NCBI RefSeq assembly: GCF_039655865.1
Contig: NZ_JBBYXL010000009.1
Location: forward strand, 186,001 to 250,000
Origin: Prosthecobacter sp. SYSU 5D2
Lineage (GTDB): Bacteria; Verrucomicrobiota; Verrucomicrobiia; Verrucomicrobiales; Verrucomicrobiaceae
DNA length: 64,000 nt
Direction: 5' to 3'
This document shows, piece by piece, positions 5,879 through 42,469 of this stretch (positions within the stretch are counted from its first letter, which is position 1; each line of letters starts with the position of its first letter). The notes under the pieces were generated by a model. The model saw only the letters and a list, made by a program, of their open reading frames with translations, did not search any database and was not told where the DNA came from. A program made the position numbers and the translations under genes.

Positions 5879-5893
5879 GTGTTATATTAACAC
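5879..5893 (-). promoter_or_regulatory. Perfect palindrome upstream of the LamG/BNR gene
   Basis: GTGTTA-TAT-TAACAC is a perfect 6+6 inverted repeat in an AT-rich patch about 95 bases upstream of the 5784 start codon. A TTGACA hexamer occurs on the minus strand at 5916-5911, though its spacing to a -10 hexamer is poor. It could be an operator or promoter site; the sequence alone does not decide. Confidence 0.35.
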
Positions 5894-5912
5894 GACATCC
5901 TGCCCAGCGTTG

Positions 5913-7502: not shown

Positions 7503-7577
7503 GAGGATGTCTCTCCGGTAATGGCCGGGCTGGATTAAAATGTATGGAGCCTGCCTGTCAGGACAGACTGGCTGGCT

Positions 7578-8396: not shown

Positions 8397-8504
8397 GGTG
8401 TGTATGAATGAGGAACCCGGTATAAACGTTCCTTCTCCCTGGCCCTCTCCGCCCGAATCGCACCGGTGGTGATGCTTTTGTGATATTGAGGCATGGCCTG
8501 ATAA

Positions 8505-8535
8505 AGAAACAGCCGGGACGTTTCCGTCCCGGCTG
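8505..8535 (-). terminator. Rho-independent terminator of rpiB-glyA
   Basis: An 11-bp perfect GC-rich stem (CAGCCGGGACG / CGTCCCGGCTG, 8510-8535) closes a 4-nt loop. On the minus strand it is followed by GTTTCTTTAT. It lies 27 bases after the stop codon of the rpiB-glyA fusion and upstream of the DUF1080 gene, so it should separate the two transcripts. Confidence 0.85.
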
Positions 8536-8562
8536 CTCATTGGTGATTAGGGTTTGCCTCGT

Positions 8563-10272: not shown

Positions 10273-10412
10273 GGAGATGATTGGCGAAGGGGAAGTGAAA
10301 TGGAAAATGAAAAGATCGAATGCAAAGATGCAAAAAACGAATGATGCGGCGGGGTGCGGCAGGAAGACGGATCAAGAGGGAGCAGCATCACGGCAGAGCA
10401 TGTTCCCACTGA

Positions 10413-17249: not shown

Positions 17250-17332
17250 AGGCGTGGATGAGCTTGGACAGCAGCGCCAGCGAGGGCTGCTTTTTCAAAG
17301 GCCGCGATAGACATGCGACAAGGGGCCGTTCC

Positions 17333-18934: not shown

Positions 18935-18951
18935 GGGGCGGGCTTGAAGAG

Positions 18952-18968
18952 GGGACTTGGCAAGTCCC
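18952..18968. other. Near-perfect short palindrome after the sulfatase gene
   Basis: GGGACTTG-G-CAAGTCCC forms a 7-8 bp stem with a minimal loop in the gap between the sulfatase and DUF1501 genes. There is no T tract. It may be a small dispersed palindrome, not a terminator. Confidence 0.4.
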
Positions 18969-19067
18969 GCTCCTTGATGCTTGGCAGGTCACGTTCGTTG
19001 TTGGGAAAGTTTTTGGTTAGGGCAGGCGTATTGTGGGGACAACCGGCCTGCGGCTTTCCACACGATC

Positions 19068-20426: not shown

Positions 20427-20577
20427 GATCACTTTTCGATATGGCTGGGTAAGGGGGAGTTCTTTTGACAGGATTTTTTTGGATGTTTTTCATTATTTTT
20501 TGATTCCTGTTTATTTTATATGAGTGTCTTTTGATGCTGACTCCAGGGTGGGCTTTGCGGTATGATCGTGATAATCT

Positions 20578-21492
20578 ATGAAACGACCTGCCCTGCTGCA
20601 TTGCGTGATGTTGTGCCTGTCTGTGAATCTGCTTTTTCCTATGGAGGCGGGGGCGGTGGAGAATGATGGGAAGCTGCGCATTGTGGTGTTTGGGGCGCAC
20701 CCGGATGATGCCCAATACAAGGCGGGCGGAACGGCGGCAAAGTGGGCGAAGCTGGGGCACCACGTGAAGCTGGTGTCCGTGACGAACGGCGACATCGGCC
20801 ACTGGCAGTCGGCCGGGGGGCCGCTGGCGCAGCGGCGGCTGGCGGAGGTGAAGAAGGCGGATGCCATCGTGGGCGCGGAGACGCAGGTGCTGGACATCCA
20901 TGACGGGGAGCTGATGCCGACCCTGGAGAACCGGCAGAAGATCATCCGCATCATCCGGGAATACCGGGCGGACATTGTGATCTCGCACCGGCCGTGGGAC
21001 TACCATCCGGACCACCGGTATGTGGGCATCCTGGTGCAGGATGCGGCGTTCATGGTGACGGTGCCGTATATTTGCAGCGATGTACCTCCGCTGAAAAAGA
21101 ACCCGGTGTTTTTGTATTCGAGCGATGGTTTTCAGAAGCCGTATCCCTTCCAGGGGGACATTGTGGTATCAGTGGATGATGTGTTTGACCAAAAGCTGGC
21201 GGCCATCCATGAGATGCCCTCCCAGCACTATGAAGGCGGCGCGGGCGGCAGCGAGGAGCATGTGCAGCGGGTGCCAAGTGAGGCGGATGAGGCGGGGCGG
21301 AAGGCCTGGCTGAGGGACCGGTGGACACAGAGGCAGAGCGGGGAGGCCAAGCGCTTCCGTGAGGGGCTGCTGAAGTGGTATGGGCCGGAAAAGGGGGCGG
21401 AGGTGAAGTATGCCGAGGCTTTTGAAATCTGCGAATACGGGCGCAAACCGACGCCTGAGGAGATCCGGATTCTGTTTCCGTTTTTTCCGTAG
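20578..21492 (+). CDS. Secreted PIG-L / LmbE-family deacetylase
   Basis: This 304-residue exported protein (signal peptide about residues 1-26) belongs to the zinc-dependent N-acetylglucosaminyl deacetylase family. Motifs are VVFGAHPDDAQYKAGG (zinc ligands and catalytic Asp) and the third zinc ligand region in WDYHPDHRYVG. Family members deacetylate N-acetylated sugars or sugar conjugates. The gap before it (20427-20577) is AT-rich and carries TTGACA at 20465 without a convincing -10. A ceramidase-like gene follows 49 bases later. Together with the sulfatase this suggests removal of decorations from a host or algal glycan, which is inference. Confidence 0.87.
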   Translation: MKRPALLHCVMLCLSVNLLFPMEAGAVENDGKLRIVVFGAHPDDAQYKAGGTAAKWAKLGHHVKLVSVTNGDIGHWQSAGGPLAQRRLAEVKKADAIVGAETQVLDIHDGELMPTLENRQKIIRIIREYRADIVISHRPWDYHPDHRYVGILVQDAAFMVTVPYICSDVPPLKKNPVFLYSSDGFQKPYPFQGDIVVSVDDVFDQKLAAIHEMPSQHYEGGAGGSEEHVQRVPSEADEAGRKAWLRDRWTQRQSGEAKRFREGLLKWYGPEKGAEVKYAEAFEICEYGRKPTPEEIRILFPFFP

Positions 21493-21541
21493 CCACGCAT
21501 CTGTTGTGAGAGCGGGGTCCATGGCGGCGTAGGTAGTGGGC

Positions 21542-22978
21542 ATGAAGTCCAACCAACGGCGTCTGTTATCCTGTGTGTGTTTTCTGGGCCTGTGTGTGGC
21601 CCTGATGGCGGCGGAGAAACCGAAGCCGGTGTTTAGGGCGGGTGCGGCGGCGGTGGACATCACGCCGGAGCATTTCCCGATGAACATGCCGGGCGGCTTC
21701 AGCGCGAAGATGGCGGAGAAGGCGCATGATCCGTTTCACTCGCGGGCGCTGGTGATGGCGGATGGGGAGACGACTGTGGCGATGGTGGTGGTGGATCAGC
21801 TCGGAGCGGGACCGGAGGTGCTGGACGAGGCGAAAAAACGCGCTTCGGAAAAGACCGGCATCCCAATGGCTAACATGATGATCAGCTCCACGCATACGCA
21901 CACGGGGCCGTCCTTGAACACACGCAGCGAAGCCAGTGCGAAATATTATGAAAAATTTGTCGCGGGTGTGGCGGATTCCATCGCGCAGGCACATGGCGCG
22001 CTGAAACCGGCGGCGATGGGCGCGGCGGCGGCGCCGCTGGCGGAGGAGGTGTTTAACCGGCGGTGGTATGTAAAGGAGGACAAGATGCCGAAGAATCCGT
22101 TTGGCCGGTTTGACCGGGTGAAGACGAATCCGGGGACGAGCCCGGACGTGATCGAGCGGCCCGCCGGACCGACGGACCCGGACATCACGATCCTGTCCAT
22201 CCAGGATGCGAAGCGGAAGCCGGTGGCGCTTTATGCGAACTACTCGCTGCACTACGTGGGCGGTGTGCCGGAGGGCCAGATGTCGGCGGATTACTTTGGC
22301 GAATTTGCGCGTCTGATGCCTTCGCGCATCAAGGGAAATGATGACTTCGTGGCGATGATGTCCAACGGAACATCGGGAGACATCAACAACATCCCTTTTG
22401 GCGTGACAAGGCCTCCGCGTGAGCCGTTTGAGCAGATCCGCATCGTGGCGCAGAAGGCGGCGGACACGGCATGGAATGCCTGGCGGAAGATAAACAAACA
22501 TGAGAACGATGTGCGGCTGGGCATGGTGCAACGGGAGGTGACTTTGAAATATCGGAAACCATCCTCCCAGGAAGTGGCGGAGGCGAAGGCAGTGCTGGCG
22601 GTGAAGGACAAAGATGCCATCGCCCAGATGCCACGGCTGGCGCAGAACTATGCACGCAGCACAGTCAGCGCCGCCGAGCGCCCGGAGGAAACCGTGACCG
22701 TGCAGATCCAGGCGCTGCGGATCGGGAACTTTGCGGTGTGCGCGATCCCATTTGAGGTGTTTGTGGAGATCGGCCTGGATTTGAAAAAGCGCAGCCCTTT
22801 CCCACAGACCATGGTGGTGGGGTTGGCCAACGGGCGGCACGGGTATCTGCCGACACTGGAGCAACATTCGTTAGGCGGTTATGAGACGTGGATCGGCACC
22901 TGCCGCGTGCAGGAAGATACGTCGGTCATTTTGACGGATCATCTGCTGGAGATGCTGGCGGAGCTGAAGGGGGAGTAG
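21542..22978 (+). CDS. Secreted neutral/alkaline ceramidase-like amidohydrolase
   Basis: This 478-residue exported protein matches the N-terminal catalytic domain of neutral/alkaline non-lysosomal ceramidases. It has a signal peptide, then FRAGAAAVDITPE. Zinc-binding histidines are in SSTHTHTGPS and the NYSLHYVGG region, and the active-site serine motif is MMSNGTSGDINN. Ceramidases are about 650 residues or more; this one lacks the C-terminal Ig-like domain, as is common in environmental relatives, so its substrate may be another amide. The ATG at 21542 is preferred over a GTG two codons earlier. It converges with the GntR-type regulator gene. Confidence 0.82.
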   Translation: MKSNQRRLLSCVCFLGLCVALMAAEKPKPVFRAGAAAVDITPEHFPMNMPGGFSAKMAEKAHDPFHSRALVMADGETTVAMVVVDQLGAGPEVLDEAKKRASEKTGIPMANMMISSTHTHTGPSLNTRSEASAKYYEKFVAGVADSIAQAHGALKPAAMGAAAAPLAEEVFNRRWYVKEDKMPKNPFGRFDRVKTNPGTSPDVIERPAGPTDPDITILSIQDAKRKPVALYANYSLHYVGGVPEGQMSADYFGEFARLMPSRIKGNDDFVAMMSNGTSGDINNIPFGVTRPPREPFEQIRIVAQKAADTAWNAWRKINKHENDVRLGMVQREVTLKYRKPSSQEVAEAKAVLAVKDKDAIAQMPRLAQNYARSTVSAAERPEETVTVQIQALRIGNFAVCAIPFEVFVEIGLDLKKRSPFPQTMVVGLANGRHGYLPTLEQHSLGGYETWIGTCRVQEDTSVILTDHLLEMLAELKGE

Positions 22979-23094: not shown

Positions 23095-24183
23095 CTACAC
23101 CGTCTCGCCGGCGACGAAGGCGGGGACGAGGCGGGTAGTTTTGGGGGGGAGGGTGCCGGTTTCGGCGAGCTGGCGGGCGGCGGTGGAGACGCGGCGGACG
23201 TAGTCCGGGATGCTGATGCTGTAACGGGTGACGGCGGGGACGGTGGCGGCGAAGAAGGGATCGTCATCGCGGGAGATGACGGCGATGTCATGAGGAATTC
23301 TCAGACCGCGACGGAGGAGGTGCATGGTGACGGTGAAGGCATGAATGGCGCGGGCGACGATGATGGAGGTGGGCGGATGTGCGGAGGCGAGGGCGGCATC
23401 GAGCAGGCGGCAGAGGTGGGCATTGCTGCCGTCATGGCGGAGGACGTGGAGATGGATGCCGGGGCTGGGTGTGAGGGATTCGCGCAGGCCGAGCTCGCTG
23501 TCGGCATCGCCATCGAAGGAGTCCAGGGGAAGGGCGAGAGCGAGGTTGCGGTGGCCTTTGCGCAGGAGCAGGGCACCGGCATGGCGGCAGGCGGCACGGT
23601 GATCCACATCCAGGGACGGGAGGGGCAGACCGGCGCGGCAGGAGCCGATGATGAGGCAGGGAATTTTGTTCTCAATGAACCAGCGCTGCATGGGCTCGCG
23701 CGAACCGAAGATGAGCCAGACGGTGCCGGGATGGCTGGCGATGAGCTTTTCCAATGCGCGGGCGGGATGGGCGGAGAAGCAGCGCGGGCTGACGTGCAGA
23801 TCGCTCTCGAATCCGGCACGGGTGAGGCTTTCACGAAGTGAGTGAAGGAGGATCATCCGCCGGGTATGGAGGGACTGAAAGGGGGTGGCCATGAGCAGGC
23901 CGACGGTGTGGCGCTGGGCCAGGCGGGGCCGTTTGGACAGGGGCTTCAAGATGCGGCGGCGGGAGCGGACGGAGACTTCGACGAGGTCTTCGGCCTCCAG
24001 TTCCTTGAGGGCGGCGCGGAGGGTTTTGCGGCCGACCTGGAGGGCTTGGGCGAGGTCGCGCTCGGCAGGGAGATGGCCGGTCCACAAGCCGGTGCGGATG
24101 CCTTTGCGAAGAGCGCTGACGGTCTGGGTGACCAGGGAGATGCGCTGGGGAAGCGGAGTCTGGAAGGTGGGGCGGGCTTTCAT
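23095..24183 (-). CDS. GntR-type regulator with LacI-type sugar-sensing domain
   Basis: This 362-residue regulator has an N-terminal winged helix of the GntR type (LPAERDLAQALQVGRKTLRA with the following ELEAEDLVEVS). A periplasmic-binding-protein-like effector domain follows (about residues 95-350, HTVGLLMATPFQSLHTRR..., SIIVARAIHAF, HDIAVISRDDDPFF). This arrangement matches AraR-like sugar-responsive repressors. The ATG at 24183 is chosen because the winged helix starts about 20 residues later; more upstream ATGs would intrude on the divergent gene. It faces away from the 24.3-34.4 kb operon across a 109-base gap that carries a palindrome, so it is the obvious candidate regulator of that operon. 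Confidence 0.88.
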   Translation of the reverse strand: MKARPTFQTPLPQRISLVTQTVSALRKGIRTGLWTGHLPAERDLAQALQVGRKTLRAALKELEAEDLVEVSVRSRRRILKPLSKRPRLAQRHTVGLLMATPFQSLHTRRMILLHSLRESLTRAGFESDLHVSPRCFSAHPARALEKLIASHPGTVWLIFGSREPMQRWFIENKIPCLIIGSCRAGLPLPSLDVDHRAACRHAGALLLRKGHRNLALALPLDSFDGDADSELGLRESLTPSPGIHLHVLRHDGSNAHLCRLLDAALASAHPPTSIIVARAIHAFTVTMHLLRRGLRIPHDIAVISRDDDPFFAATVPAVTRYSISIPDYVRRVSTAARQLAETGTLPPKTTRLVPAFVAGETV

Positions 24184-24240
24184 GACGGTGGTTTCCACAG
24201 GGAACCAGCAGGCTAACATTGCCCCGGACGCCTGTGCAAG

Positions 24241-24255
24241 CGCATGATGCATGCG
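24241..24255. promoter_or_regulatory. Candidate operator between regulator and catabolic operon
   Basis: CGCATG-ATG-CATGCG is a perfect 6+6 inverted repeat in the 109-base divergent gap between the GntR-type regulator and the esterase gene. Position and symmetry suit a dimeric winged-helix repressor. No binding data can be read from sequence. Confidence 0.45.
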
Positions 24256-24292
24256 AAACCAATCGCAGACGCCCATGTTCACCCCACCCGCC

Positions 24293-25261
24293 ATGAACGT
24301 TCTAGCAGCAGCCGTGCTGTGCCTGGCCTTGCTGACGGATGCGGTCCTGGCGGGGGCGGCGCCAAAGCCAGTGGATGACGCGGTGCCGCCGGTGATGCCG
24401 ACGCGCGCGGATGTGGCCTATGGCACGCATCCGAAGCAGGTGCTGCATTTCTGGCAGGCGAAGACGGAGGGACCTGCACCGCTGATCTTTTTCATTCATG
24501 GCGGCGGCTGGGTGGCGGGACACCGGCTGAGCACTTTGGGCACGTTTCTGGAAGAGGTGCTGGCGGAGGGCATCTCGGTGGTGTCCATCGAATACCGGTT
24601 TGTGACGGAGGCGCTGATGGCCGGAGTGAATCCACCGGTTCAGTGGCCGATGGAAGATGCGGCGCGGGCTTTGCAATTCGTGCGCAGCCAGGCGGCGGAG
24701 TGGAACATTGACAAAACGCGCATCGCGGCCTGCGGGAGCTCCGCCGGGGCCTGCACGAGCCTGTGGCTGGCCTTTCAGGATGACCTGGCGGATGCGGCCA
24801 GCAGCGACCCGGTGGCGCGCGAATCCACGCGGCTGTTTTGCGTGGCGGCGCATCTGGCCCAGACGACGCTGGACCCGCAGCAGATGCAGGAATGGACGCC
24901 TAACAGCAGGTATGGCGGCCATGCGTTTGGATTTATGCCGGACCCGGCGGATCTGACGACAAGAGACACGCGGTTTGCCCAGTTCCTGGCGGCGCGGGAA
25001 AGTCTGATGCCGTGGATCCAGCGCTATTCACCGTATGCGCTGGTGAGCGCGGATGATCCGCCGGTGTATCTGTATTACCGAACGCCTCCGGCGATGGGGC
25101 AGCCGGACAAGGATCCCACCCATAGCGCTAATTTTGGCGTGAAGCTGCAGGAGCGCTGCCGGGCAGAATCGGTGGAATGCGAGATGTTTTATCCGGGTGC
25201 TGAAAACGCCGTGCATCGGACGATACAATCTTATTTAATCTCACGCCTGAAGGCTCCCTGA
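24293..25261 (+). CDS. Secreted alpha/beta-hydrolase (BD-FAE/acetyl-esterase type)
   Basis: This 322-residue exported hydrolase starts with a hydrophobic signal segment (MNVLAAAVLCLALLTDAVLA). It shows the hormone-sensitive-lipase-like oxyanion motif HGGGW and the nucleophile motif CGSSAGA. A late His (NAVHRTI) is a plausible triad member. Such enzymes remove acetyl or feruloyl groups from plant or algal glycans. It is the first gene of the operon, and the aldolase follows after 9 bases. ATG 24275 would add six residues and is an alternative start. Confidence 0.82.
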   Translation: MNVLAAAVLCLALLTDAVLAGAAPKPVDDAVPPVMPTRADVAYGTHPKQVLHFWQAKTEGPAPLIFFIHGGGWVAGHRLSTLGTFLEEVLAEGISVVSIEYRFVTEALMAGVNPPVQWPMEDAARALQFVRSQAAEWNIDKTRIAACGSSAGACTSLWLAFQDDLADAASSDPVARESTRLFCVAAHLAQTTLDPQQMQEWTPNSRYGGHAFGFMPDPADLTTRDTRFAQFLAARESLMPWIQRYSPYALVSADDPPVYLYYRTPPAMGQPDKDPTHSANFGVKLQERCRAESVECEMFYPGAENAVHRTIQSYLISRLKAP

Positions 25262-25270
25262 ACAACTCTT

Positions 25271-26038
25271 ATGTCCCCTTCCCTTGTCCTGCAAAAATTA
25301 GCCAAAGGCCAGACGGTGGTCTGTGCGAAGGCCTGCTATACTGACCCTGAACTGGTGGAGATGATCGCCTCATCCGGATACGATGCGGTGTGGATCTGCA
25401 TGGAGCACAAACGCATGGATGCTGCGATGGTGTATTCGATTATCCAGGCGTGCAGGCTGGGCGGGGCGGATGCACTGATCCGGGTGAAGCCGTCGAACTA
25501 CACGGATGTGCTGCACCTGATCGAATGCGGAGCGCGCGGCATCATGCTGCCGCGAGTGAGGCATCCGGATGAGGTGCGGGCGGTGGTACAGGCAATGAAT
25601 TTTCCGCCGCTAGGGGTGCGGGGTTTTGACGGCATCCATGCGGAGGCGGACTTTGGGCGTATCCCGGCAGCGGAGTATCTGGCAACGGCGAACGAAGGGA
25701 ACTTTTTGGTGGTGCAGATCGAGGAACCGGAGGTGCTGGTGCATGTGGATGAGATCGCGGCGATGCCGGGCGTGGACATCCTTTTTGTTGGGCCTGCGGA
25801 CCTGACGCTGGGCCTGGGCAAATTTGGCCAGACGGGCGACCCGGAGGTGCGGGCGATTTTGCAAATAGTGGCCGATGCCTGCAAACGGCACGGCAAGGTG
25901 GCAGGCATCCCCTGTGCGCCGGAGCAGGTGGCGGACTACCGGGCGATGGGCTTTGAGTTTTTCAATGTCATCAGTGACTACCGTTGTGTTTTCCATGGCA
26001 TGAAGGCGGCGCGGGCGGCGGTGGGAATCGAGAAATAA
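25271..26038 (+). CDS. HpcH/HpaI-family aldolase (2-keto-3-deoxy sugar acid type)
   Basis: This 255-residue cytoplasmic class II aldolase has the family layout: catalytic-base region WICMEHKRMD, IRVKPSN, the metal-ligand segment VVQIEEPEVL, and LFVGPADLTLGLG. Characterised relatives (RhmA, GarL, HpaI) split 2-keto-3-deoxy acids into pyruvate plus an aldehyde. The exact substrate is not determined, but the neighbouring MFS transporter of acid-sugar type supports a sugar acid. It is spaced 9 bases after the esterase and 8 before the FAD oxidoreductase, as in a single operon. Confidence 0.88.
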   Translation: MSPSLVLQKLAKGQTVVCAKACYTDPELVEMIASSGYDAVWICMEHKRMDAAMVYSIIQACRLGGADALIRVKPSNYTDVLHLIECGARGIMLPRVRHPDEVRAVVQAMNFPPLGVRGFDGIHAEADFGRIPAAEYLATANEGNFLVVQIEEPEVLVHVDEIAAMPGVDILFVGPADLTLGLGKFGQTGDPEVRAILQIVADACKRHGKVAGIPCAPEQVADYRAMGFEFFNVISDYRCVFHGMKAARAAVGIEK

Positions 26039-26046
26039 AAACCATC

Positions 26047-27975
26047 ATGTCGCACGTCACGGAACAGCTTTTGAAATGTGATCTCCTGGTGGCAGGAGGG
26101 GGCATTTCTGGTGTTTGCTGCGCGCTGGCGGCGGCGCGGCTGGGGGCGCGGGTGATCCTGTGCCAGGACCGGTCCGTGCTGGGCGGCAATGCCTCCAGCG
26201 AGGTGCGGATGCACATTGTGGGGGCGACGGGGCTGGGTGGCGGCACGGCGCTGGAGGCGGAGCTGCGAGAGGGTGGCATCATTGAGGAACTGCGGCTGGA
26301 CCTGGCGGTGCAAAATCCGCAACGGTCATCAGCGATGATGGACCTGCTGCTGTATGACAAATGCAGGCGTGAGCCTAACATTGAGTTGCATCTGAATACG
26401 ACGGTGGTGAGGGCAGTAGTGGAAGGCGGACTGATCCGTGAGGTGCATGCAGAGCGGCCTTTGACGGAGGAGCGGCTCATCATCCGGGCGCGCACTTTTG
26501 TGGACTGCACGGGGGATGGGCGACTGGGCGTGGAGGCGGGTGCGCCTTATATGCAGGGGCGCGAGGGGCAGGCGGACTATGGTGAATCGCTGGCGCAGGA
26601 AGTGGCGGACAAGAAGACACTGGGCTCGACGATTCTGTTCCAGGCCAGGCGACATGCGCAGCCGATGCCCTTCACGGCTCCGCCGTGGGCGAGACGGATG
26701 AAGGCGGAGGATTTTAAGCTGCGGCCTTTTGGTAAAGATGGATCGGACCTAGGGCTGGAGTATGGTTACTGGTGGATCGAATGGGGCGGGTGCCTGGATA
26801 CGCTGAAGGACAATGAACGCATCCGTGATGAGCTGCTGGCGATCACCCTGGGAGTGTGGGACTTTGTGAAAAATCACTCGTCGGTGGATGCCTCTCATTG
26901 GGCGCTGGAGTGGATTGGTTTTCTGCCGGGCAAAAGGGAGAGCAGACGGTTTATCGGCCAGCATGTGCTGAGTGAAAGAGATCTGATAGAATCGCGCCCA
27001 TTTGAGGATGCGATTGCGTATGGAGGCTGGCCGATTGACACGCATCCGCCGGAAGGCGTAGATGCGCCGGAGCTGCCGCCGTGTACGCAGCATCACCTGC
27101 CCTGGCTGTATGACATTCCTTTGAGTTCGTGCATCTCCGCCGGGCCGCGTAATCTGATGTTTGCGGGGCGGAATCTTTCCGCCACGCACATTGCCTTTGC
27201 CTCCACGCGGGTGATGGCAACATGCGCGGTGGTGGGCCAGGGCGTGGGGACGGCAGCGGCGATGGCGCTGCGTGAGGGGGTGGATGCGGCGAACATTGTG
27301 CAACATCCGGAACTGATGCGAGCGATCCGGCAGCGGCTTTTGAGGGAGGATTGTTTTCTGCTCGGGGCGGTGAATGAGGATGATGGGGACCTGGTGCGCC
27401 AGGCATCCGGCATCGTGGCGTCCAGTTCGCAAGCCGGGTCCGGGCCGGAGGAAATCCGCAGCAGCCAAACGAGGTCGGTTCATGGGTCACCAGAGACATC
27501 AAAAGAGGCAGCGGGCAATCTTTGGGATGAGGTGCTGAGTGGTGAGACCGTTGGTGGCGCAGTGACCTGCGCACCGCCTGGGCGGGCGGTTCCAGGGCTG
27601 CACCGATGGATGAGCGACCCTGCTGAAGGGCTGCCTGCGTGGCTGGAGATCCAGTGGGAAACGGGTGTGCGGCTGAGCGAGGTGAGCCTGATTTTTGACA
27701 CGGGCCTGCACCGGCTGCTGACGCTGTCGCAGGCGGATGGCTATACCCAAAAGATGTGCTGGGGCCGCCCGCAGCCGGAGACGGTGAAGAACTATGCCAT
27801 CAGCCTGCAAACGGCGAAGGGGTTTGTGGAGATCGGCACCTTCCGTGACAATTACCAACGCCGCCGGGTGCATGGCTTTGAACCGGTGGACGATGTCATG
27901 GCTTTACGCATCACGATTCACGCGACGAACGGGATTGACCATGCGCGGCTGGTGGAAGTGCGCGCCTACGCCTAA
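26047..27975 (+). CDS. FAD-dependent oxidoreductase (FAD_oxidored, PF12831 type)
   Basis: This 642-residue protein opens with the dinucleotide-binding motif LLVAGGGISGVCCALAAARL and the family signature LGGNASSEVRMHIVG. It continues with FVDCTGDGRLG and FAGRNLSATHIAFAS, both typical of these flavoproteins. The last 100 or so residues look beta-rich, possibly a discoidin-like accessory domain. There is no signal peptide, so it should be cytoplasmic. The reaction is unknown; oxidation of a sugar or sugar acid taken up by the adjacent transporter is a reasonable inference. The ATG at 26047 excludes an upstream in-frame stretch that overlaps the aldolase gene. Confidence 0.85.
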   Translation: MSHVTEQLLKCDLLVAGGGISGVCCALAAARLGARVILCQDRSVLGGNASSEVRMHIVGATGLGGGTALEAELREGGIIEELRLDLAVQNPQRSSAMMDLLLYDKCRREPNIELHLNTTVVRAVVEGGLIREVHAERPLTEERLIIRARTFVDCTGDGRLGVEAGAPYMQGREGQADYGESLAQEVADKKTLGSTILFQARRHAQPMPFTAPPWARRMKAEDFKLRPFGKDGSDLGLEYGYWWIEWGGCLDTLKDNERIRDELLAITLGVWDFVKNHSSVDASHWALEWIGFLPGKRESRRFIGQHVLSERDLIESRPFEDAIAYGGWPIDTHPPEGVDAPELPPCTQHHLPWLYDIPLSSCISAGPRNLMFAGRNLSATHIAFASTRVMATCAVVGQGVGTAAAMALREGVDAANIVQHPELMRAIRQRLLREDCFLLGAVNEDDGDLVRQASGIVASSSQAGSGPEEIRSSQTRSVHGSPETSKEAAGNLWDEVLSGETVGGAVTCAPPGRAVPGLHRWMSDPAEGLPAWLEIQWETGVRLSEVSLIFDTGLHRLLTLSQADGYTQKMCWGRPQPETVKNYAISLQTAKGFVEIGTFRDNYQRRRVHGFEPVDDVMALRITIHATNGIDHARLVEVRAYA

Positions 27976-27981
27976 CTATTT

Positions 27982-29112
27982 ATGAGACTAACAACACATT
28001 CGATTTTTTTGATGACTGTCCTTCTGACAGGGTCCCCTGCCCTGCGGGCAGCGGAGGCGGTGATCCCGGCGAGCAAGGAGGTGCATGTGCTTGCGGCCTC
28101 GGCAGACACACCGGAGCTGCCTTACCTGGCGTTTCCGGCGGTGCTGGACCTGGGTGAGGAAGTGCTGATTTCCTTTAAACAGGGGCGGTCCCATGCGGCG
28201 GATCCGGGCGCGGTGCTGGAGGGACTGTGGATCCAGCGCAGCAGCGGGGCGGTGAAGGCGCGCCGCACGCTGGCGAAGATTGACGGCGAGATCATGCAGA
28301 TGGGTGAGTGGGTGCGCTTTGCCAATGGGGACATCACCAATTACATTGATGCGCAGCGCAAGGAGGCACCGACACGCACGGGGCTGCGCTTTATCCGGTC
28401 CACGGATGGCGGGCGCAGCTTTGGGAAAGTGGAGCGGCTGGGGGTGGTGGACGGGGTGGAGTATGGGTATGCCTTTGATGCGATCACCCAGGGCAAGACG
28501 ACGTGGATGCTGGTGATGACCTTTGCCAATCTGACGGGCGGTGAGCTGGTTTTTAAACGCGGCAGCCAGCCGGGATCGGTGGATGTGATCCGCACGGAGG
28601 ATGATGGCGGCACGTGGAAGTTTGTGCGCAGCATCACGCGTGAGCTTGACGGCGCGCCCATCAATGAGAGTGCGTTTATTCGCGACGGGGAGGATTTTTT
28701 GGTGACGGCGCGTGGCTATGACAACCGGCAGTGGCTGCTGCGGATGGATGATGAATTTAAGCTGAAGAAGCGGGTGGACCTGACGGCGGAGCATGACTTT
28801 ATCCAGTCCTATGTCGGGCGGCCCAGGCTCTTCATCAAAGACGGCGGCTTTTATCTGCTGGGGCGCAACTGGACGGACAAGGGGCCGATGAAACTGAGCC
28901 TGTTCAAGCTGGATGCGGAGACGCTGGGCATCACGCGGCATGTGCTGCTGGACAATGCGGAGGCTGAGCCGGTGGCGGACGGATACTATGCGCAGCCGTA
29001 CTGGCAGGAGCGCGAGGGCCGGATGCGGTTCAATGTGATCAATTACAAAAGGGGAGCGCAGCCAGGGCCTGACATCGTGCGGCTGGAATACGACTGGGAG
29101 GAGGTGAAATGA
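27982..29112 (+). CDS. Secreted sialidase-like (BNR) beta-propeller protein 1
   Basis: This 376-residue exported protein has a signal peptide (MRLTTHSIFLMTVLLTGSPALRA) and a sialidase-superfamily propeller with Asp boxes STDGGRSF and TEDDGGTW. It starts 6 bases after the FAD oxidoreductase stop codon and overlaps the MFS gene by 4 bases (ATGA), so it is clearly part of the operon. Whether it cleaves sialic-acid-like residues or another sugar cannot be told from motifs alone. The family also contains rhamnosidase-like and lyase-like members. Confidence 0.8.
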   Translation: MRLTTHSIFLMTVLLTGSPALRAAEAVIPASKEVHVLAASADTPELPYLAFPAVLDLGEEVLISFKQGRSHAADPGAVLEGLWIQRSSGAVKARRTLAKIDGEIMQMGEWVRFANGDITNYIDAQRKEAPTRTGLRFIRSTDGGRSFGKVERLGVVDGVEYGYAFDAITQGKTTWMLVMTFANLTGGELVFKRGSQPGSVDVIRTEDDGGTWKFVRSITRELDGAPINESAFIRDGEDFLVTARGYDNRQWLLRMDDEFKLKKRVDLTAEHDFIQSYVGRPRLFIKDGGFYLLGRNWTDKGPMKLSLFKLDAETLGITRHVLLDNAEAEPVADGYYAQPYWQEREGRMRFNVINYKRGAQPGPDIVRLEYDWEEVK

Positions 29113-30326
29113 ACCGTGCGTGGCTTGTGGTGGCGGTGCTGTGGGTGGTGGCGGTCCTGAACTATCTGGACCGCATCATGATCACGACGATGCGGGATTC
29201 ACTGACGGAGGTGATCCCGATGACGGATGCGCAGTTCGGTCTTTTGACATCGGTTTTCCTGTGGGTGTATGGGCTGCTGAGCCCGTTGGCGGGTTTTTTG
29301 GCGGACCGCTTCAACCGCTGCCGACTGATCATCATCAGCCTGTTTGTGTGGTCGCTGCTGACATGGCTGACGGGTTATGCGAAGACGTTTGAGCAGCTCA
29401 TCGTGGTGCGTGCGCTGATGGGGGTGAGCGAGGCGGCGTATCTGCCTGCGGCGCTGGCTTTGATCGCAGATTATCATCGCGGCAGTACGCGGTCGCTGGC
29501 CACGGGCATTCACATGACGGGCCTGAGCGTGGGCACAGGCCTGGGCGGCGTGGGCGGCTGGCTGGCGGAGAAACAGGGGTGGAGCTTTGCGTTTGAGGTG
29601 TTTGGGATTTTCGGCATCGGTTATGCCATCGTGCTCCTCTGGCTTCTGCGTGAGGCACCGCAGGAGAAGGCGGCCGTGGACACGGCGGGGCTGCCAGTTT
29701 TGGTCCCCAAAGCGCGGCTGGGCGAGGCGCTGGTGAGCCTCTTCAGCCGGGGCTCGTTCATTCTGCTGGTGGTTTACTGGAGCCTTTTCGGTCTGGCAGG
29801 CTGGGCGGTGATGGGCTGGATGCCGACATATTTCAAAGAGAACTTCGACCTGCAGCAAGGCGCGGCGGGCATCTCTGCCACGGCCTTTCTGGCGGGCGCA
29901 ATGCTGCTGGGCAAGCTGGTGGGCGGAGCCTGGGCTGACCGCTGGACGCGGACGAATCCGCGTGCGCGCATCCTGGTGCCTGCCATCGGCATGTTTATCG
30001 GTGCGCCGGCGATATTCCTCGTGGCAGGCACTAGCACGCTGGCCATCGCCATCGCGGGCCTGTCCATCTACGGCATGATGCGGTCGTTTTCGGATTCGAA
30101 CCTGATGCCGGTCCTGTGCCAGGTCTCAGACCCGCGCTACCGGGCCACGGGGTATGGGGTGCTGAACATGTTCGCCTGCATCATCGGCGGCCTAACTATT
30201 TATGCCGGAGGCGCGATGCGGGATGCCCAGGTGGGTGTGGACACCTTGTTTCAATCGGCCGCCGTAGGGCTGCTCATCTGCGGGGTGCTGATGCTGATGG
30301 TGAAACCGGCGAAGACTGCTTCTTGA
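29109..30326 (+). CDS. MFS transporter, anion:cation symporter-like
   Basis: This 405-residue inner-membrane protein has twelve predicted helices. It shows LNYLDRIMITTMRDSL in helix 1, the MFS loop 2-3 motif GFLADRFNRCRL, and GRSAYLP-like residues in helix 4 (GVSEAAYLPAALALI). The pattern is that of the ACS family, which imports hexuronates, glucarate and other acid sugars with protons. It is preceded by a real Shine-Dalgarno (GGAGG, within the end of the BNR gene) and overlaps that gene by 4 bases. It is the only importer in the operon. Confidence 0.9.
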   Translation: MNRAWLVVAVLWVVAVLNYLDRIMITTMRDSLTEVIPMTDAQFGLLTSVFLWVYGLLSPLAGFLADRFNRCRLIIISLFVWSLLTWLTGYAKTFEQLIVVRALMGVSEAAYLPAALALIADYHRGSTRSLATGIHMTGLSVGTGLGGVGGWLAEKQGWSFAFEVFGIFGIGYAIVLLWLLREAPQEKAAVDTAGLPVLVPKARLGEALVSLFSRGSFILLVVYWSLFGLAGWAVMGWMPTYFKENFDLQQGAAGISATAFLAGAMLLGKLVGGAWADRWTRTNPRARILVPAIGMFIGAPAIFLVAGTSTLAIAIAGLSIYGMMRSFSDSNLMPVLCQVSDPRYRATGYGVLNMFACIIGGLTIYAGGAMRDAQVGVDTLFQSAAVGLLICGVLMLMVKPAKTAS

Positions 30327-30359
30327 GTGTTTTCCTTCCATGAATTTACCTTTTCGATC

Positions 30360-31424
30360 ATGAAACTGCACCTCCTGACATGGCTCTTTTTCACTGGGGT
30401 ATTCAACGCCGGTTCCATCCGGGGTGAAGTGGCGACGGAGCCTGAGGACATCGTCCGTTACGTGGCGGTGGACAATGTCTGTGCGTGGCCAAATTTGACG
30501 TTGCTGAAGGATGGCAGTATTGCGGCCATCATCCATAACCAGCCCAGCCATGCGCGAATGGAAGGTGACATTGACTGCTGGACCAGCCGCGACGGGGCGA
30601 TGTGGGAAAAGCGTGCGCAACCGGCCCCGAATGCGCCTGGCACAGTGCGCATGAATGTGGCGGCAGGCAAGGCGACAAATGGCGACCTGGTGGTGCTGTG
30701 CTCGGGCTGGACGCTGAAGAATGGCGCGCCCAAGACGGTGCTGCCCTGCTGGGTGACGAGGTCCGCCGACAGCGGAAGCACCTGGGAGGTGATCCGCGCC
30801 TTTCCCGAGGCTGAGCCAGGGTGGACGCACTTTGTGCCGTTTGGCCCCATCCTGCCGGGGGAGGATGGACGGTTACACACTTCTTGTTATGCTCGCGGCC
30901 TGGAAGACCGGAATGCGCGGCAGGTCTGGCACTTTGCCAGCAGGGACGAGGGCAGGACGTGGAAGCGTGGCGCGGTGATCGGCCAGGATCACAATGAGAC
31001 CTCGATCTTCCATCTGGGCGGGAAACGCTGGCTGGCGGCTGCGCGAAACAATGCGGCCGCCCACGTGGTGCTTTTCCGTTCGGATGATGACGGTGAGAGC
31101 TGGCAGGGAGGTGAGCCCATCACCGCAAACCGCGAGCTGAACGCGCATCTGCTGCGCCTGGCGGATGGCCGAATTTTGCTGTCCTATGGCAATCGATCAC
31201 CAGGGGAGTTTGGCGTCCTGGCCAAATTCAGCACGGATGAAGGCCGCACCTGGAGCACCCCCGTCCGGCTGGCACACAGCCTGTCATCGGACTGCGGTTA
31301 TCCCAGCAGTGTGCAGCGTGCGGATGGGCGCATCGTGACGGCTTTTTATTCCGCATCGGCTGTAAACCATGAGCGCTATCACATGGGTGTGGCCATCTGG
31401 AAAGCTCCTGATTTCAAACCCTGA
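30360..31424 (+). CDS. Secreted sialidase-like (BNR) beta-propeller protein 2
   Basis: This 354-residue exported protein has a signal peptide (MKLHLLTWLFFTGVFNAGSIRG) and a six-bladed sialidase-type propeller with four Asp boxes: SADSGSTW, SRDEGRTW, SDDDGESW and STDEGRTW. It resembles the exo-alpha-sialidase family found in Verrucomicrobiota. The ATG at 30360 precedes the signal peptide and lies 33 bases after the MFS stop. It is followed by a third propeller protein. Confidence 0.82.
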   Translation: MKLHLLTWLFFTGVFNAGSIRGEVATEPEDIVRYVAVDNVCAWPNLTLLKDGSIAAIIHNQPSHARMEGDIDCWTSRDGAMWEKRAQPAPNAPGTVRMNVAAGKATNGDLVVLCSGWTLKNGAPKTVLPCWVTRSADSGSTWEVIRAFPEAEPGWTHFVPFGPILPGEDGRLHTSCYARGLEDRNARQVWHFASRDEGRTWKRGAVIGQDHNETSIFHLGGKRWLAAARNNAAAHVVLFRSDDDGESWQGGEPITANRELNAHLLRLADGRILLSYGNRSPGEFGVLAKFSTDEGRTWSTPVRLAHSLSSDCGYPSSVQRADGRIVTAFYSASAVNHERYHMGVAIWKAPDFKP

Positions 31425-31452
31425 AACGTTTAAACTCATTCCTTTTATAAGC

Positions 31453-33066
31453 ATGATCCGCATCCTTTGTTTGATCCCATTGCTGGCCTGCGCGCTCCAG
31501 GCGGCCGATGACAACGACGGTATTGAGTGGCTGGTACAATACGATGGCAAAGCTGTACCTGAGGCCCCTTGGAGGGTCATTGGGCAGCCGAAGGCAAGTC
31601 TTCAAGAGGATGGGCTTTTGCTGACGGATGATTCTGCTGAGTTCGGTTATTATCGTGCGCCGTGGAAGGCTGCGCCGGGTAATGAGATCATTGTGGAAGC
31701 AACGGTCAAAGCGGGTGCGGCCACGGGATCACAAAGGAACAAACCTTCCACTTCGCTCTGGCCCTGGCGCGATGGGGCACCGGTGATGGTGCAGGTGAGC
31801 GATGGCGTGCATCAGGAAGGACTGGTGCTCTTTCCTGCACAAGCCACAAGCTTTACGGACCGCTTCATCCCCATGGATACGACGAACCGTTTTCATACTT
31901 ACCGGCTGGTCATCCACGGCACGCACATGAGCATGTGGGTGGATGGTGAACTGAAGGTGGAGGGGCAGAATGCGTTCTGGAAAAAGGCGGACAGCTCGGA
32001 GCCTTTTATCCAGTTTGGATCCAGTGCGAAAACCGCGACGGGGGAGGCGCATTGGAAGTCAGTCAGGCTGGGTATTCGCAAGGCGTCAGCAAAGCCGAAG
32101 GCTGCGCCTGTCAAGATCACCGTCAGCGAGCCCTGGGACTTGACACGTCAGGAGGTGCGGCAGACGCGGCCTTATTTGTATGACATGGGCCAAGGCCTGC
32201 TGCTGATGAGCGTGGCCCAGGGGCCGGATGCTTTTTATGAACCGTATGGGCTGCTGAAATCCACGGATGCCGGCAAGACCTGGGCACCCATTCCAGGGCT
32301 GGACCAGCTAGACACCACTCCCCTGCCCGTGCTGCGCCGGCCGGATGGCAGCATCCTGGCCGTGTCCCGCTGGACCTGGTTGCAGGCGGATGGCAGCGTG
32401 CAGGGCAAAACCGTGCATCTGAACGCCGATGCCACGCAGTTCACCATGCACGACAACCGGATCCATTTGCCGAAACAATACGCCAATGAGACAAAGGGAG
32501 ATCAGACCATCTGCGAGCGTCACATCTGGAATGATGCGGATGGCGGTGTGACGATGGTCCTGTGGACACGCAAGGCGGTACCCATGGCCGATGGCCGCAA
32601 AAAAACTGAACGCATGTCCCACCTGATGCGGTCCACGGACAACGGCCTGACGTGGAACTATTTCTCCACCATCGGCCCCGGCGGCGAGCCTGCGGTGGTA
32701 CGGCTTTCGGATACGAAAATGACAGCGGTCATCCGTGGCGACCGGGACTCGCGGATGAAGCAGATGTTTTCTCATGATGGCGGCAAGACCTGGGATGAAC
32801 CGGTCTCGCTAGAGGTGGGCAAGGTGCTGCCGGATCTCGTGCTGATGAGTAATGGCGTGCTTGCATGCAGCTATGGCCGGCCTGCGTCCTGCCTGATGTT
32901 CAGCCTGGATGGCGGCAAGACCTGGCCTTCCCACCATGTCATCTCAGACCGGGTGGGTTTCAATTACACCAGCATCCGCGAGATCTCACCCGGGCGGCTT
33001 CTTTACATCCACGATGCGCCGAAGATGAATGCGATGTACATTGATGTTGAGCGGGCCGGGGAATGA
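31453..33066 (+). CDS. Secreted jelly-roll plus BNR beta-propeller protein 3
   Basis: This 537-residue exported protein has a signal peptide (MIRILCLIPLLACALQA). A beta-sandwich module of about 200 residues follows (IIVEATVKAG..., TYRLVIHGTHMSMWVDGELKVEG), resembling LamG/DUF1080-type domains. A C-terminal sialidase-type propeller has the Asp boxes STDAGKTW, STDNGLTW, SHDGGKTW and SLDGGKTW. The first module probably binds carbohydrate. Its stop codon overlaps the ATG of the next gene by 4 bases (ATGA). Confidence 0.8.
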   Translation: MIRILCLIPLLACALQAADDNDGIEWLVQYDGKAVPEAPWRVIGQPKASLQEDGLLLTDDSAEFGYYRAPWKAAPGNEIIVEATVKAGAATGSQRNKPSTSLWPWRDGAPVMVQVSDGVHQEGLVLFPAQATSFTDRFIPMDTTNRFHTYRLVIHGTHMSMWVDGELKVEGQNAFWKKADSSEPFIQFGSSAKTATGEAHWKSVRLGIRKASAKPKAAPVKITVSEPWDLTRQEVRQTRPYLYDMGQGLLLMSVAQGPDAFYEPYGLLKSTDAGKTWAPIPGLDQLDTTPLPVLRRPDGSILAVSRWTWLQADGSVQGKTVHLNADATQFTMHDNRIHLPKQYANETKGDQTICERHIWNDADGGVTMVLWTRKAVPMADGRKKTERMSHLMRSTDNGLTWNYFSTIGPGGEPAVVRLSDTKMTAVIRGDRDSRMKQMFSHDGGKTWDEPVSLEVGKVLPDLVLMSNGVLACSYGRPASCLMFSLDGGKTWPSHHVISDRVGFNYTSIREISPGRLLYIHDAPKMNAMYIDVERAGE

Positions 33067-34418
33067 GGCAGCATCGTTGGATGAACCGCCGCCAATTTTT
33101 TACCACGGGTGCTGCTGCGCTGGCCTGTCCTGTTTTTGCTGACACGAAGGGCCGTCCGCCGCGCATCCTGCTGAGGCCGGGGACGTATCAGAATGGCAAC
33201 ATCGGAGACATTGCGCACTCGCCAGGGGCACTGCGGATGTTTGAGACGCTGTGGCCGGAAGCGGAGATGACTTTGTGGCCGCGCGGCATCAGCCCGGAGG
33301 CGAAGGCGAGCCTGGAAAAAAACTTCCCGCGTCTGCGAATCGTGGAGGGGGAAATCAAGAGCAAAGGGGAGCTGACGACGCCGGAGCTGAGGGCGGCGTG
33401 GAAGGAGGCGGACTTCATGCTGCATGGCTCCGCACCGGGATTCAAAGGCGGTGAATACCTGCCTGCGTGGCGGGCGGCGGGCGGAAAGCCGTATGGGCTA
33501 TTTGGCATCACGAACGATCCGCTCTCCGGCATCAATGGCAGCTTTCCAGAAGGCGGGACGCTGAAGCAACTGCGGGCGGCGATCGAGGCGCTGCCGAAGG
33601 ATCATCTGCGCTCCGGCACGCGCACGCTGCTGAACGGGGCCTCTTTTGTCTTCTGCCGAGACAGCCTGTCGCAGCTTTATTTTGAGCGGCAGGGAGTGGC
33701 CAGCCCGCTGGCCTTTGGACCGGACAGCACCTTTGCGCTGCACCTGCGCGATGATGCGCGGGCGGCGGCCTATTTGCAGGAGCAGGGGCTGGAGGCGGAC
33801 CGCTTCATCTGCGTGATCCCGAGGCTGCGCTACACGCCATCGGAAGCGGCGACCCGGGCGGCGGAAACGAAGGGCTCTGCGGCGAAGTCGGCGGTCAATG
33901 AACGCACACGCAAGGCGGACCACGAGAAGCTGCGGGGCCTGATCATCCGCTGGGTGCGGGAGACGGGGCAGAAGGTGCTGGCCTGCCCGGAGATGTCCTA
34001 CGAAGTGGCGCTGGCGAAAGAGGAGCTGGTGGATCCGCTGCCGGAGGATGTGAAGGCGAAGGTGGTGTGGCGGAACAGCTACTGGCAGCCGGATGAGGCG
34101 GCCTCCATCTATGCGAAGGCGATGGCAGTGGTGAGCTGCGAATGCCACTCCCCCATCATCGCGCTGACCAACGGCACGCCGGCCTTCTACATCCGCCAGC
34201 CGACGGATACGGTGAAGGGACAGATGTATCATGACATCGGCGCAGGTGACTGGAACTTTGAGGTGGATGAAACAAGTGCGGATGAACTGTGGACGCGGCT
34301 GCAGCCCATCCACGCGGATCTGGCCCAAGCCCGTGAAAAGGTGAAAACGCTGATGGCAGGCGTGCAAAAGGTGCAGACCCGGATGGTGGAGGCGGTGCGG
34401 GCGAGCCTGGGGGCGTAA
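33063..34418 (+). CDS. Apparently exported polysaccharide pyruvyl transferase-family protein
   Basis: This 451-residue protein matches PF04230 (CsaB/WcaK type): GNIGDIAHSPGALR near the N-terminus, FVFCRDSLSQLYFERQGV, LAFGPDSTFAL and SCECHSPIIALTNGTPAF. Known members transfer a pyruvyl ketal from PEP to a sugar in the cytoplasm. This one instead begins with a Tat-like signal (MNRRQFFTTGAAALACPVFA), which would take it away from PEP. The start at 33063 overlaps the previous stop (ATGA); ATG 33081, directly before the signal, is equally possible. It ends the tightly spaced operon, 107 bases before the DUF1080 fusion gene. Confidence 0.75.
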   Translation: MRQHRWMNRRQFFTTGAAALACPVFADTKGRPPRILLRPGTYQNGNIGDIAHSPGALRMFETLWPEAEMTLWPRGISPEAKASLEKNFPRLRIVEGEIKSKGELTTPELRAAWKEADFMLHGSAPGFKGGEYLPAWRAAGGKPYGLFGITNDPLSGINGSFPEGGTLKQLRAAIEALPKDHLRSGTRTLLNGASFVFCRDSLSQLYFERQGVASPLAFGPDSTFALHLRDDARAAAYLQEQGLEADRFICVIPRLRYTPSEAATRAAETKGSAAKSAVNERTRKADHEKLRGLIIRWVRETGQKVLACPEMSYEVALAKEELVDPLPEDVKAKVVWRNSYWQPDEAASIYAKAMAVVSCECHSPIIALTNGTPAFYIRQPTDTVKGQMYHDIGAGDWNFEVDETSADELWTRLQPIHADLAQAREKVKTLMAGVQKVQTRMVEAVRASLGA

Positions 34419-40648: not shown

Positions 40649-42469
40649 TCATTCCCGCTGCAGTGCACTGACCTCCACGTTGGCTTGACGCAGGCGGGCG
40701 GAGATTTCCCGAGTGATCTCGTAAAGAAGGGAGATTTTTAAAGCCGGTCGCGTTTCATTGAGGGCGGCAAACCATGCACGAGGAATGACGAGGCAGTTCA
40801 CGAAGCCGAGGGCGATGACATCCGCTGAGCGAGGTGACGCATCCAGGAAGGCCATCTCACCGACCGTCATGCCAGCGGTCAGCACGTCCACACGCTTTCT
40901 GTTCTGGTTTTCTGTGCGGATCTGCACTTCCACGCTGCCTTCCAGAAGCACCAGCATTTCATCCGCCATCTCCCCGGCCGTGATGAGCGCCTGCCCGGCC
41001 TCGTAACGCCGGCGGGTCAGTTCCGTGCGCATAAGTTCCAGATCCTCTGCCGTGCAACTGCGAAACAACGCGCACTGCTCCAGAGGAATGTTCCCCGCCG
41101 GCCGCCAGGAGGCTCCCGTCACCTCCAGGAGCAAAGCATCCTCGCACGCCTCCAGTGCAGCATCTTCTGTGGCAAACAGCATGCTGGGGGTGAATCCTGC
41201 ATCTGGCAGCCGTGCCTCAAATTTACCCGGATGGCAGATGACCATCCGGACCCCCTGTTTGATGAGTTGCGACCGCAGCTCCCCTATCAAACGCAGACTG
41301 ACGGCATCCACACTGACGACCGCGCGCAGGTCCAAAATGAGCTGTAAACAGCCCGCGTCAGCCAGTTGCTGAGCTTTCCTCAACACAGGCTCCAGTGTGG
41401 TAAAAATAAGCCCTCCCTGCAGTGCCAGGATCTGGATGCGTGAACCATGACGGCGCAACGATTCCCGTGCCGCAGGTGGCAGGCGGCGACGCGCGACCAC
41501 CTCCCCACCATGATAGGCCTGGCGCACCGCCGTCCGCGGAGTCGCCGCCGGATTCAGCATGTGCAGAGCCAGCTCTTGGGAAAGGTCCATGCAGACTTTG
41601 ATTCCACGCAAGCTGTTCCCCTGGGTGTCAAGCGGCGGTGAAAACACACCAATGCCCAACTGCCCGGGCAGCACTGCCAGGATACCCCCGCCCACGCCGC
41701 TCTTGGCCGGCAGCCCCACACGATACACCCATTCGCCAGACCAGTCATACATGCCGCAGGTGGCCATGACCCCCAGCACATTGTCCACATACTCTGCCGG
41801 GATCACCCGCTTTCGGGTCACGGGTTGCACCCCCTGGTTGGCCAGTGTCGCCCCCATCAGTGCCAGATCCCGGCAGGTTACGCGTATGGAGCACTGCTTA
41901 AAATAAGTCTCCAAGATCTCATGCGGATCTTCATCCAGGATGCCAAAATTCCTCAAAAGCCAGCCAATGGCCCGGTTCCGGTGTCCGGTCTCGCTTTCAC
42001 TTCTGTAAATGGACTCATCAATATCCAGCTGGCGCCCGGCAAAGGCGCTCAGGTAATCCAAGATCCGGTCAATGCGTGATTTGCCATCCTCCGGCAAAAC
42101 CTGACCGCAAGTGGCGATGGCACCGGCATTGATCATCGGGTTAAACGGCACTCCGCTGCCTTCCTTCAGGCTGATCGCGTTGAAGGCTTCCCCCGAAGGC
42201 TCGACGCCAATGCGCGACAGGATGTGCTTCTCCCCCCGGTCCTGCAATGCCAGGCCATAGGCCAAAGCCTTGGACACGGACTGGATGGTGAAACTGTGAC
42301 GTGTATCCCCCACCTCATAAACATGACCGTCACGGGTGGCGATACAGATGCCAAAAAGCCGGGGGTCCGCCTTGGCCAGCTCCGGAATATAATCGGCGAG
42401 ATGACCGTCCATGACGGACGCATAGCGAGCATGAAGCACCTGTAGATACTCCTGGATGGGTGAGAGCAT
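40649..42469 (-). CDS. glsA: Glutaminase fused to STAS and cyclic-nucleotide-binding domains
   Basis: This 606-residue protein has three domains. Residues about 1-310 are a serine-dependent GlsA glutaminase (glutamine to glutamate plus ammonia), with ADYIPELAKADP, the catalytic Ser-Lys pair in FTIQSVSKALAYG, FNPMINAGAI and SGVGGGILAVLPG. Residues about 330-440 resemble a STAS domain (LQLILDLRAVVSVDAVSLRLIGEL). Residues about 460-580 are a cNMP-binding/CRP-like domain (AGQALITAGEMADEMLVLLEGSVEV, PRSADVIAL). The accessory domains suggest allosteric control by a nucleotide second messenger and protein partners. The STAS domain has no obvious anti-sigma partner here. A small hairpin abuts the start codon. 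Confidence 0.88.
   Translation of the reverse strand: MLSPIQEYLQVLHARYASVMDGHLADYIPELAKADPRLFGICIATRDGHVYEVGDTRHSFTIQSVSKALAYGLALQDRGEKHILSRIGVEPSGEAFNAISLKEGSGVPFNPMINAGAIATCGQVLPEDGKSRIDRILDYLSAFAGRQLDIDESIYRSESETGHRNRAIGWLLRNFGILDEDPHEILETYFKQCSIRVTCRDLALMGATLANQGVQPVTRKRVIPAEYVDNVLGVMATCGMYDWSGEWVYRVGLPAKSGVGGGILAVLPGQLGIGVFSPPLDTQGNSLRGIKVCMDLSQELALHMLNPAATPRTAVRQAYHGGEVVARRRLPPAARESLRRHGSRIQILALQGGLIFTTLEPVLRKAQQLADAGCLQLILDLRAVVSVDAVSLRLIGELRSQLIKQGVRMVICHPGKFEARLPDAGFTPSMLFATEDAALEACEDALLLEVTGASWRPAGNIPLEQCALFRSCTAEDLELMRTELTRRRYEAGQALITAGEMADEMLVLLEGSVEVQIRTENQNRKRVDVLTAGMTVGEMAFLDASPRSADVIALGFVNCLVIPRAWFAALNETRPALKISLLYEITREISARLRQANVEVSALQRE

Follow-up and report, generated by a model that had tools for sequence, protein, structure and literature searches.

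The gene at 33063-34418 (+) of a 64,000-nucleotide stretch of Prosthecobacter sp. SYSU 5D2 (contig NZ_JBBYXL010000009.1, positions 186,001 to 250,000; this whole stretch is called the window) encodes a protein of the PF04230 superfamily that is very probably exported. It belongs to a large and apparently undescribed group of exported PF04230 proteins in which the arginine modelled at the phosphate of phosphoenolpyruvate (PEP) has given way to a conserved acid. It appears likely that this clade is exported, catabolic and independent of PEP. More specifically, and with a probability of about 0.45, the clade would represent a widespread class of pyruvate-ketal hydrolases (‘depyruvylases’), derived from ketal-pyruvyltransferases through the change of the phosphate arginine to an acid, extracellular, and accessory to polysaccharide utilisation. 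For the window protein itself, pyruvate removal from sugars by ketal hydrolysis is put forward tentatively, with slightly less confidence than for the class. The superfamily and the fold are known, while the location, the conserved active-site residue and, probably, the direction of the reaction are new.

The open reading frame starts with an ATG at 33063 that shares bases with the preceding gene's stop codon (ATGA) and encodes 451 amino acids, or 445 if the second ATG at 33081 is used. Its membership in PF04230, already claimed by a first-pass annotation of this DNA, is firmly established, as the protein scores 49 bits against a Pfam cut-off of 25.3 (E 1e-12) and covers nearly the whole profile (positions 1-276 of 280). 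The structure model has a mean predicted local distance difference test (pLDDT) score of 92.6 and a predicted template modelling (pTM) score of 0.91; together with a fold search it gives the glycosyltransferase B (GT-B) arrangement of two Rossmann-like domains. The best solved fold matches are the UDP-GlcNAc 2-epimerases (MnaA/WecB) and BshA (Z about 23, root-mean-square deviation 4-5 over about 340 residues), which have only the GT-B fold in common with the window protein at 9-12% identity. The structures of Pvg1p (5ax7) and WbbZ (6x1l) are not among the best 50 fold matches listed, which is no argument against kinship; WbbZ too is reported to have epimerase fold matches (PMC10629545). A profile of the six PF04230 paralogues of the window genome, searched by sequence against solved structures, found no match under E 0.3, and a search with WcaK as the query found no match.

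The six-paralogue profile finds the family in 41 of the 56 genomes searched, the window genome counted, and in at least 465 confirmed places in named genomes; the clade is seen in Verrucomicrobiota, Planctomycetota, Bacteroidota, Acidobacteriota and others. For analysis 80 loci were kept; the full-core members number 131 (135 hits minus the duplicates L005 and L007 and two partial hits), and 35 of them derive from the window's own genome or genus. The family profile aligns over its full length with a profile of the RLH class, which contains WcaK and others (hhalign probability 99.8%, E 5.7e-29 in a single comparison); the RLH set includes L137, only a partial sequence. The acidic members form a single clade. 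The 51 family members sampled group together in a quick maximum-likelihood tree, with a Shimodaira-Hasegawa-like approximate likelihood ratio (SH-aLRT) support of 100, separate from the RLH and SFH classes by about 1.2 changes per column, the exact placement being unsure owing to long-branch warnings in a tree of 51/131 family, 9/10 RLH and 14 SFH sequences.

Validated ketal-pyruvyltransferases carry the motifs NxGD, RxxxS/T and H, and in the published model of Pvg1 the residue R217 contacts the PEP carboxylate and R337 its phosphate (PMC10629545). Docking in CsaB implicates R148, R306, H308 and K328, and all of these except R306 were reportedly mutated. All three motifs are retained in the clade. 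The acceptor/catalytic NxGD reads NIGD in the window protein (residues 40-43, 33198..33209, +), with N, G and D in 131/131 members. R193 (33657..33659, +), the counterpart of CsaB R148 and of the carboxylate ligand R217 in the Pvg1 model, falls in a column with R in 130/131 members and X in the remaining one, and S/T follows four residues later in 131/131. Similarly, K379 (34215..34217, +), the counterpart of CsaB K328, is K in 131/131. At the place of CsaB R306 and Pvg1 R337 stands ECH (residues 354-356, 34140..34148, +), an acid followed by the catalytic-site His. In the profile alignment the E354 column is acidic throughout the 131 members (122 Glu, 9 Asp), against Arg in 10/10 RLH-class sequences; the His of this ExH motif (H356 column) is found in 131/131 members, and the WcaK K357 column has K in 10/10. 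The comparison of donor-site residues with CsaB and Pvg1, which the first-pass annotation had proposed as a check, thus finds the carboxylate Arg kept in 130/131 members and the Arg of the modelled PEP-phosphate site in none, its charge being reversed to Glu or Asp in 131/131. As the acid is also present in seven members of the loci without a recognisable export signal, it seems to follow the reaction rather than the location. Tandem arrays of 2-4 PF04230 genes occur as well (L058 at 3899-9260; L037, L038, L039, L041, L042, L053, L066 and L076), in which the ExH subtypes often differ, EPH standing alongside EMH or ECH; mixed pairs (EPH with another) make up 9/14 adjacent pairs, where about 6 are expected from the overall mix, an excess on which no argument is based here.

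The N-terminus had been read in the first-pass annotation as a signal of the twin-arginine translocation (Tat) type, and this is borne out at the level of sequence. The signal MNRRQFFTTGAAALACPVFA (33081..33140, +) is exactly the translation from ATG 33081 that was quoted there, and its two arginines (RR) are retained with either start, 33063 or 33081. All six PF04230 genes of the window genome start with an RR-type signal, with RRxF invariant in the paralogue alignment. The protein therefore reads as a Tat substrate, having an N-terminal RR, then a hydrophobic stretch, and a TatC encoded in its genome; the cleavage site could lie just after VFA, and the sequence also contains ALAC, a weak resemblance to a lipobox. 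An RR with a hydrophobic 13-mer near the N-terminus was found in 76/89 family genes as compared to 60/566 neighbours and 1/32 ordinary PF04230 proteins, the tests being simple pattern tests with a threshold chosen after a first look at the N-termini, and the 32 controls being drawn from two pooled sets with a few proteins in common. With generous stop-to-stop N-termini, 116/129 anchored members pass a similar test (two of the 131 do not carry the NIGD anchor pattern and were excluded); among the rest, one has KR, three have an RR slightly below the cut-off and nine have no RR. Two of these nine are fusion proteins (L064 and L089) in which the new N-terminus looks like a Sec signal, and seven of the 129 have no recognisable signal. 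Likewise, four relatives of the same genus carry plain Sec-type signals and retain the ECH motif. Hence export appears to be retained despite a change of route, since Sec signals replace Tat signals in relatives and fusions. The first-pass annotation had also allowed that the signal might prove a normal first beta-strand; in the model, however, pLDDT averages only 53-59 by block over residues 1-20, and the first strand of the core, residues 28-32, comes after the signal. The two signal-less members inspected for their surroundings (one of Nonomuraea, one of a Spirochaetales genome) adjoin ATP-binding cassette (ABC) sugar-import genes, which fits a catabolic enzyme located where its oligosaccharide is. 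The same-genus Sec-type subclade comprises L167 (8533-9876, -), L168 (8833-10164, +), L170 (4988-6325, -) and L169, with REALQFENIGDSGRVPGT at the first strand.

The genomic surroundings of the clade are often degradative. Genes around the loci were called by a crude greedy method, in which 7/80 loci lost their PF04230 gene. Of the 73 loci still having one, 51 supply the neighbour sample of 144 close co-directional genes. Among the 25 most frequent families, to which the tables are confined so that rarer ones are hidden, are the TonB receptor barrel (10), GDSL (6), FAD_oxidored (4), SusD (3), glycoside hydrolase (GH) family GH5 (3), and fucosidase, rhamnogalacturonan (RG) lyase, heparinase and sulfatase (2 each). 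In 80 more distant control genes of the same loci (208 eligible, 100 sampled, first 80 used) the top 25 families are mostly sulfatases, kinases and WD40 proteins. For example, Pedobacter loci combine a heparinase-like family (8r75, E 6e-38) with an alpha-L-fucosidase and a GDSL esterase; such a set of fucosidase, uronate-type lyase and esterase would presumably suit a pyruvylated and acetylated exopolysaccharide with fucose and glucuronate, such as colanic acid. Other individual neighbours are alpha- and beta-galactosidases, a GH28 and a major facilitator superfamily (MFS) transporter. In a Spirosoma plasmid record the member WP_231780417.1 lies inside an annotated SusC/SusD locus. A polysaccharide lyase of family 8 (PL8), to which xanthan lyase belongs, lies upstream of a tandem PF04230 pair in L053 and another PL8 is found in L067. 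The L053 enzyme was considered as a xanthan lyase and rejected, being closer to chondroitinase AC (E 3.5e-43 vs 8.4e-18), and no case for pyruvylated mannose is made from it. In contrast to these surroundings, four annotated ordinary PF04230 genes adjoin glycosyltransferases or polysaccharide genes.

Two members are fused to glycan-degrading domains. The L064 protein (6750-10283) has a Sec-type signal, a GH33 sialidase (1eur, E 2.9e-37), the PF04230 domain and a C-terminal PD40-like repeat, and the L089 protein (55-2499) has a Sec-type signal and an alginate lyase (8bdq, E 1.3e-50) followed by PF04230. The metagenome-assembled genome of L064 carries the label Candidatus Kuenenia stuttgartiensis, which is odd for a secreted-sialidase fusion and may be wrong.

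From the computed family, signal, clade, acid-for-arginine exchange, neighbours and fusions, we infer export in fact, the substrate, the direction and the chemistry. By way of its Tat signal the window protein would act outside the cytoplasm on polysaccharides or oligosaccharides under breakdown. It would hydrolyse sugar-borne 1-carboxyethylidene (pyruvate) ketals; the R193 pocket would hold the pyruvyl carboxylate, and no PEP would be used, since the phosphate site is now the acid E354. Acid-base catalysis at the ketal oxygens and on water may fall to H356 and E354. The products would be pyruvate and a free diol, letting exo-glycosidases or lyases proceed. A catabolic enzyme independent of PEP is preferred because the carboxylate pocket is kept, the phosphate pocket is acidic and the enzyme is placed at oligosaccharide breakdown. 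The first-pass annotation had suggested that an exported member next to an aldolase could work in the other direction or on a different donor; such a change is favoured, as the phosphate Arg is Glu or Asp in 131/131 members and the neighbours and fusions are degradative, but the aldolase argument for it fails.

Several points weigh against this proposal. The SFH-class PF04230 proteins carry Ser in the E354 column, so that not every branch of the superfamily has Arg there. The phosphate role of R306/R337 comes from docking and not from a complex structure, and R306 was reportedly left unmutated in CsaB. Neighbours vary from locus to locus, with neither HpaI nor any other single partner conserved across the loci, and several paralogues of the window genome are without an evident glycan partner; around the other five, sulfatases, DUF1501, an alpha/beta hydrolase and housekeeping genes were seen by eye, with no common partner. 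Moreover, the lyase and sialidase partners equally fit an enol-ether substrate.

The clade might instead perform some other glycan chemistry on a GT-B scaffold, as a glycosidase, a transglycosylase or a binding protein, with no pyruvyl group involved. The generic fold, with its best matches to epimerases and BshA, and the long separation of the clade in the tree would suit such a function; it is nevertheless unlikely, given that almost no variation is seen in the three motifs or at the positions matching CsaB R148, H308 and K328.

Another sugar-borne alpha-carboxy enol ether is a quite improbable substrate, whether the 4,5-unsaturated uronyl terminus that a polysaccharide lyase leaves or a 2,3-unsaturated ulosonic acid. 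Some sialidases produce the latter, and PEP itself is an alpha-carboxy enol ether; the chemistry of the family, namely protonation of the double bond and capture of the cation by water or a hydroxyl, could therefore act on such ends. The fusions to alginate lyase and GH33 sialidase are explained at least as well in this way, and the heparinase-like, PL8 and RG lyases close by, as well as the loss of the phosphate Arg while the carboxylate Arg is kept, agree with it. However, GH88/GH105-type enzymes already do that job, and at many loci neither a lyase nor a sialidase is seen.

A pyruvyltransferase that is exported and still biosynthetic, using PEP brought across the membrane or another donor, is very unlikely. 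It draws support from the retained pyruvyltransferase motifs and from Pvg1p, which reportedly works in the Golgi on PEP imported by transporters (PMC10435577). This precedent also corrects the first-pass view that known members need cytoplasmic PEP, since a location outside the cytoplasm alone does not exclude PEP. Opposed to it are the degradative neighbours, unlike those of the four ordinary PF04230 genes, and the charge of the modelled phosphate ligand, which is reversed in every member. Least credible of all is an unused signal and a cytoplasmic protein: the seven signal-less members would allow it, but the signal frequencies on the same test, the swap of Tat for Sec and the core strand behind the signal speak against it.

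The proposed pyruvate-ketal hydrolase may be set beside the known systems. CsaB of Paenibacillus alvei (NCBIfam TIGR03609) shares its superfamily, and the counterparts of its R148, H308 and K328 are kept in the window protein. Among the NCBIfam models the window protein matches TIGR03609 best, yet at 26.1 bits against an equivalog cut-off of 213.1, and unlike CsaB the window protein has Glu at R306, an export signal and no cell-wall polymer locus. Pvg1p and WbbZ have NxGD, RxxxS/T, H and the GT-B fold in common with it. Pvg1p, like the window protein by prediction, functions outside the cytoplasm, but it is a membrane-anchored Golgi enzyme of synthesis, and its R337 position is acidic in the clade. 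WcaK, the colanic acid pyruvyltransferase of Escherichia coli, aligns over the full length and shares N13, G15, D16, R183, D206, R242 and H337, its GTRLHS corresponding to E/D-x-H-S/T in the clade; unlike the window protein, it lacks a signal and is encoded in a synthesis operon.

In the window, the PF04230 gene closes a tight co-directional run that begins at 24251, and this operon (24251-34418) looks like a carbohydrate-catabolic one. It opens with an alpha/beta hydrolase (BD-FAE, 24251..25261, +, Pfam E 9e-22), followed by an HpcH/HpaI-type aldolase (25271..26038, +, Pfam E 3e-24, below all NCBIfam equivalog cut-offs) and a flavin adenine dinucleotide (FAD)-dependent oxidoreductase (26047..27975, +, FAD_oxidored E 4.6e-86; the frame is open from 25984 and 26047 is its first in-frame ATG). 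Next come a probably secreted, probable beta-propeller protein of no Pfam family with Asp-box-like motifs seen by eye (27982..29112, +), an MFS transporter (29109..30326, +, MFS_1 E 6.8e-53) and two BNR (sialidase-like) beta-propeller proteins (30327..31424, +, BNR_2 E 6.7e-24; 31369..33066, +, BNR_2 E 1.6e-11, true start possibly ATG 31453). The two BNR genes are weak evidence alone, because the window genome has 28 BNR_2 matches. A divergent GntR regulator lies upstream of the run and has a periplasmic-binding-protein-like domain of the sugar-sensor kind (23095..24294, -; GntR E 9.9e-11, Peripla_BP_3 E 4.5e-15).

The aldolase, taken in the first-pass annotation as adjacent to the PF04230 gene, lies about 7 kb upstream of it in the same run with five genes in between. 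Its partnership was dropped: no gene called at the 80 loci matched the window aldolase in blastp, and the contig of the closest same-genus relative (G154, 63% identity) carries no other gene of the window operon. Beyond the regulator, at 17258-22978, are a sulfatase, a DUF1501 protein with an RR signal, a PIG-L deacetylase and a neutral-ceramidase-like protein, which may be a linked catabolic cluster. Elsewhere in the window, the gene at 40649-42469 (-), read by eye, encodes what we take to be a glutaminase fused to STAS-like and cyclic-nucleotide-binding domains.

The group was not found described in the open-access literature on Tat-linked members, planctomycete or verrucomicrobial members, members in utilisation loci or the breakdown of pyruvylated polymers. 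The available portions of the literature name no dedicated enzyme for the removal of pyruvate ketals from polysaccharides, and the main text of a review of pyruvylated glycans does not contain the word ‘hydrolase’. Even if the proposed reaction is not the true one, ‘polysaccharide pyruvyl transferase’ is probably still a misleading name for several hundred loci in Verrucomicrobiota, Planctomycetota and Bacteroidota. If it is, an anabolic transferase would have become catabolic, with the charge of a single site reversed. Bacterial and algal polysaccharides commonly carry pyruvate ketals; the clade would then supply a missing step in the degradation of algal galactans and pyruvylated exopolysaccharides and would offer a tool for editing them.

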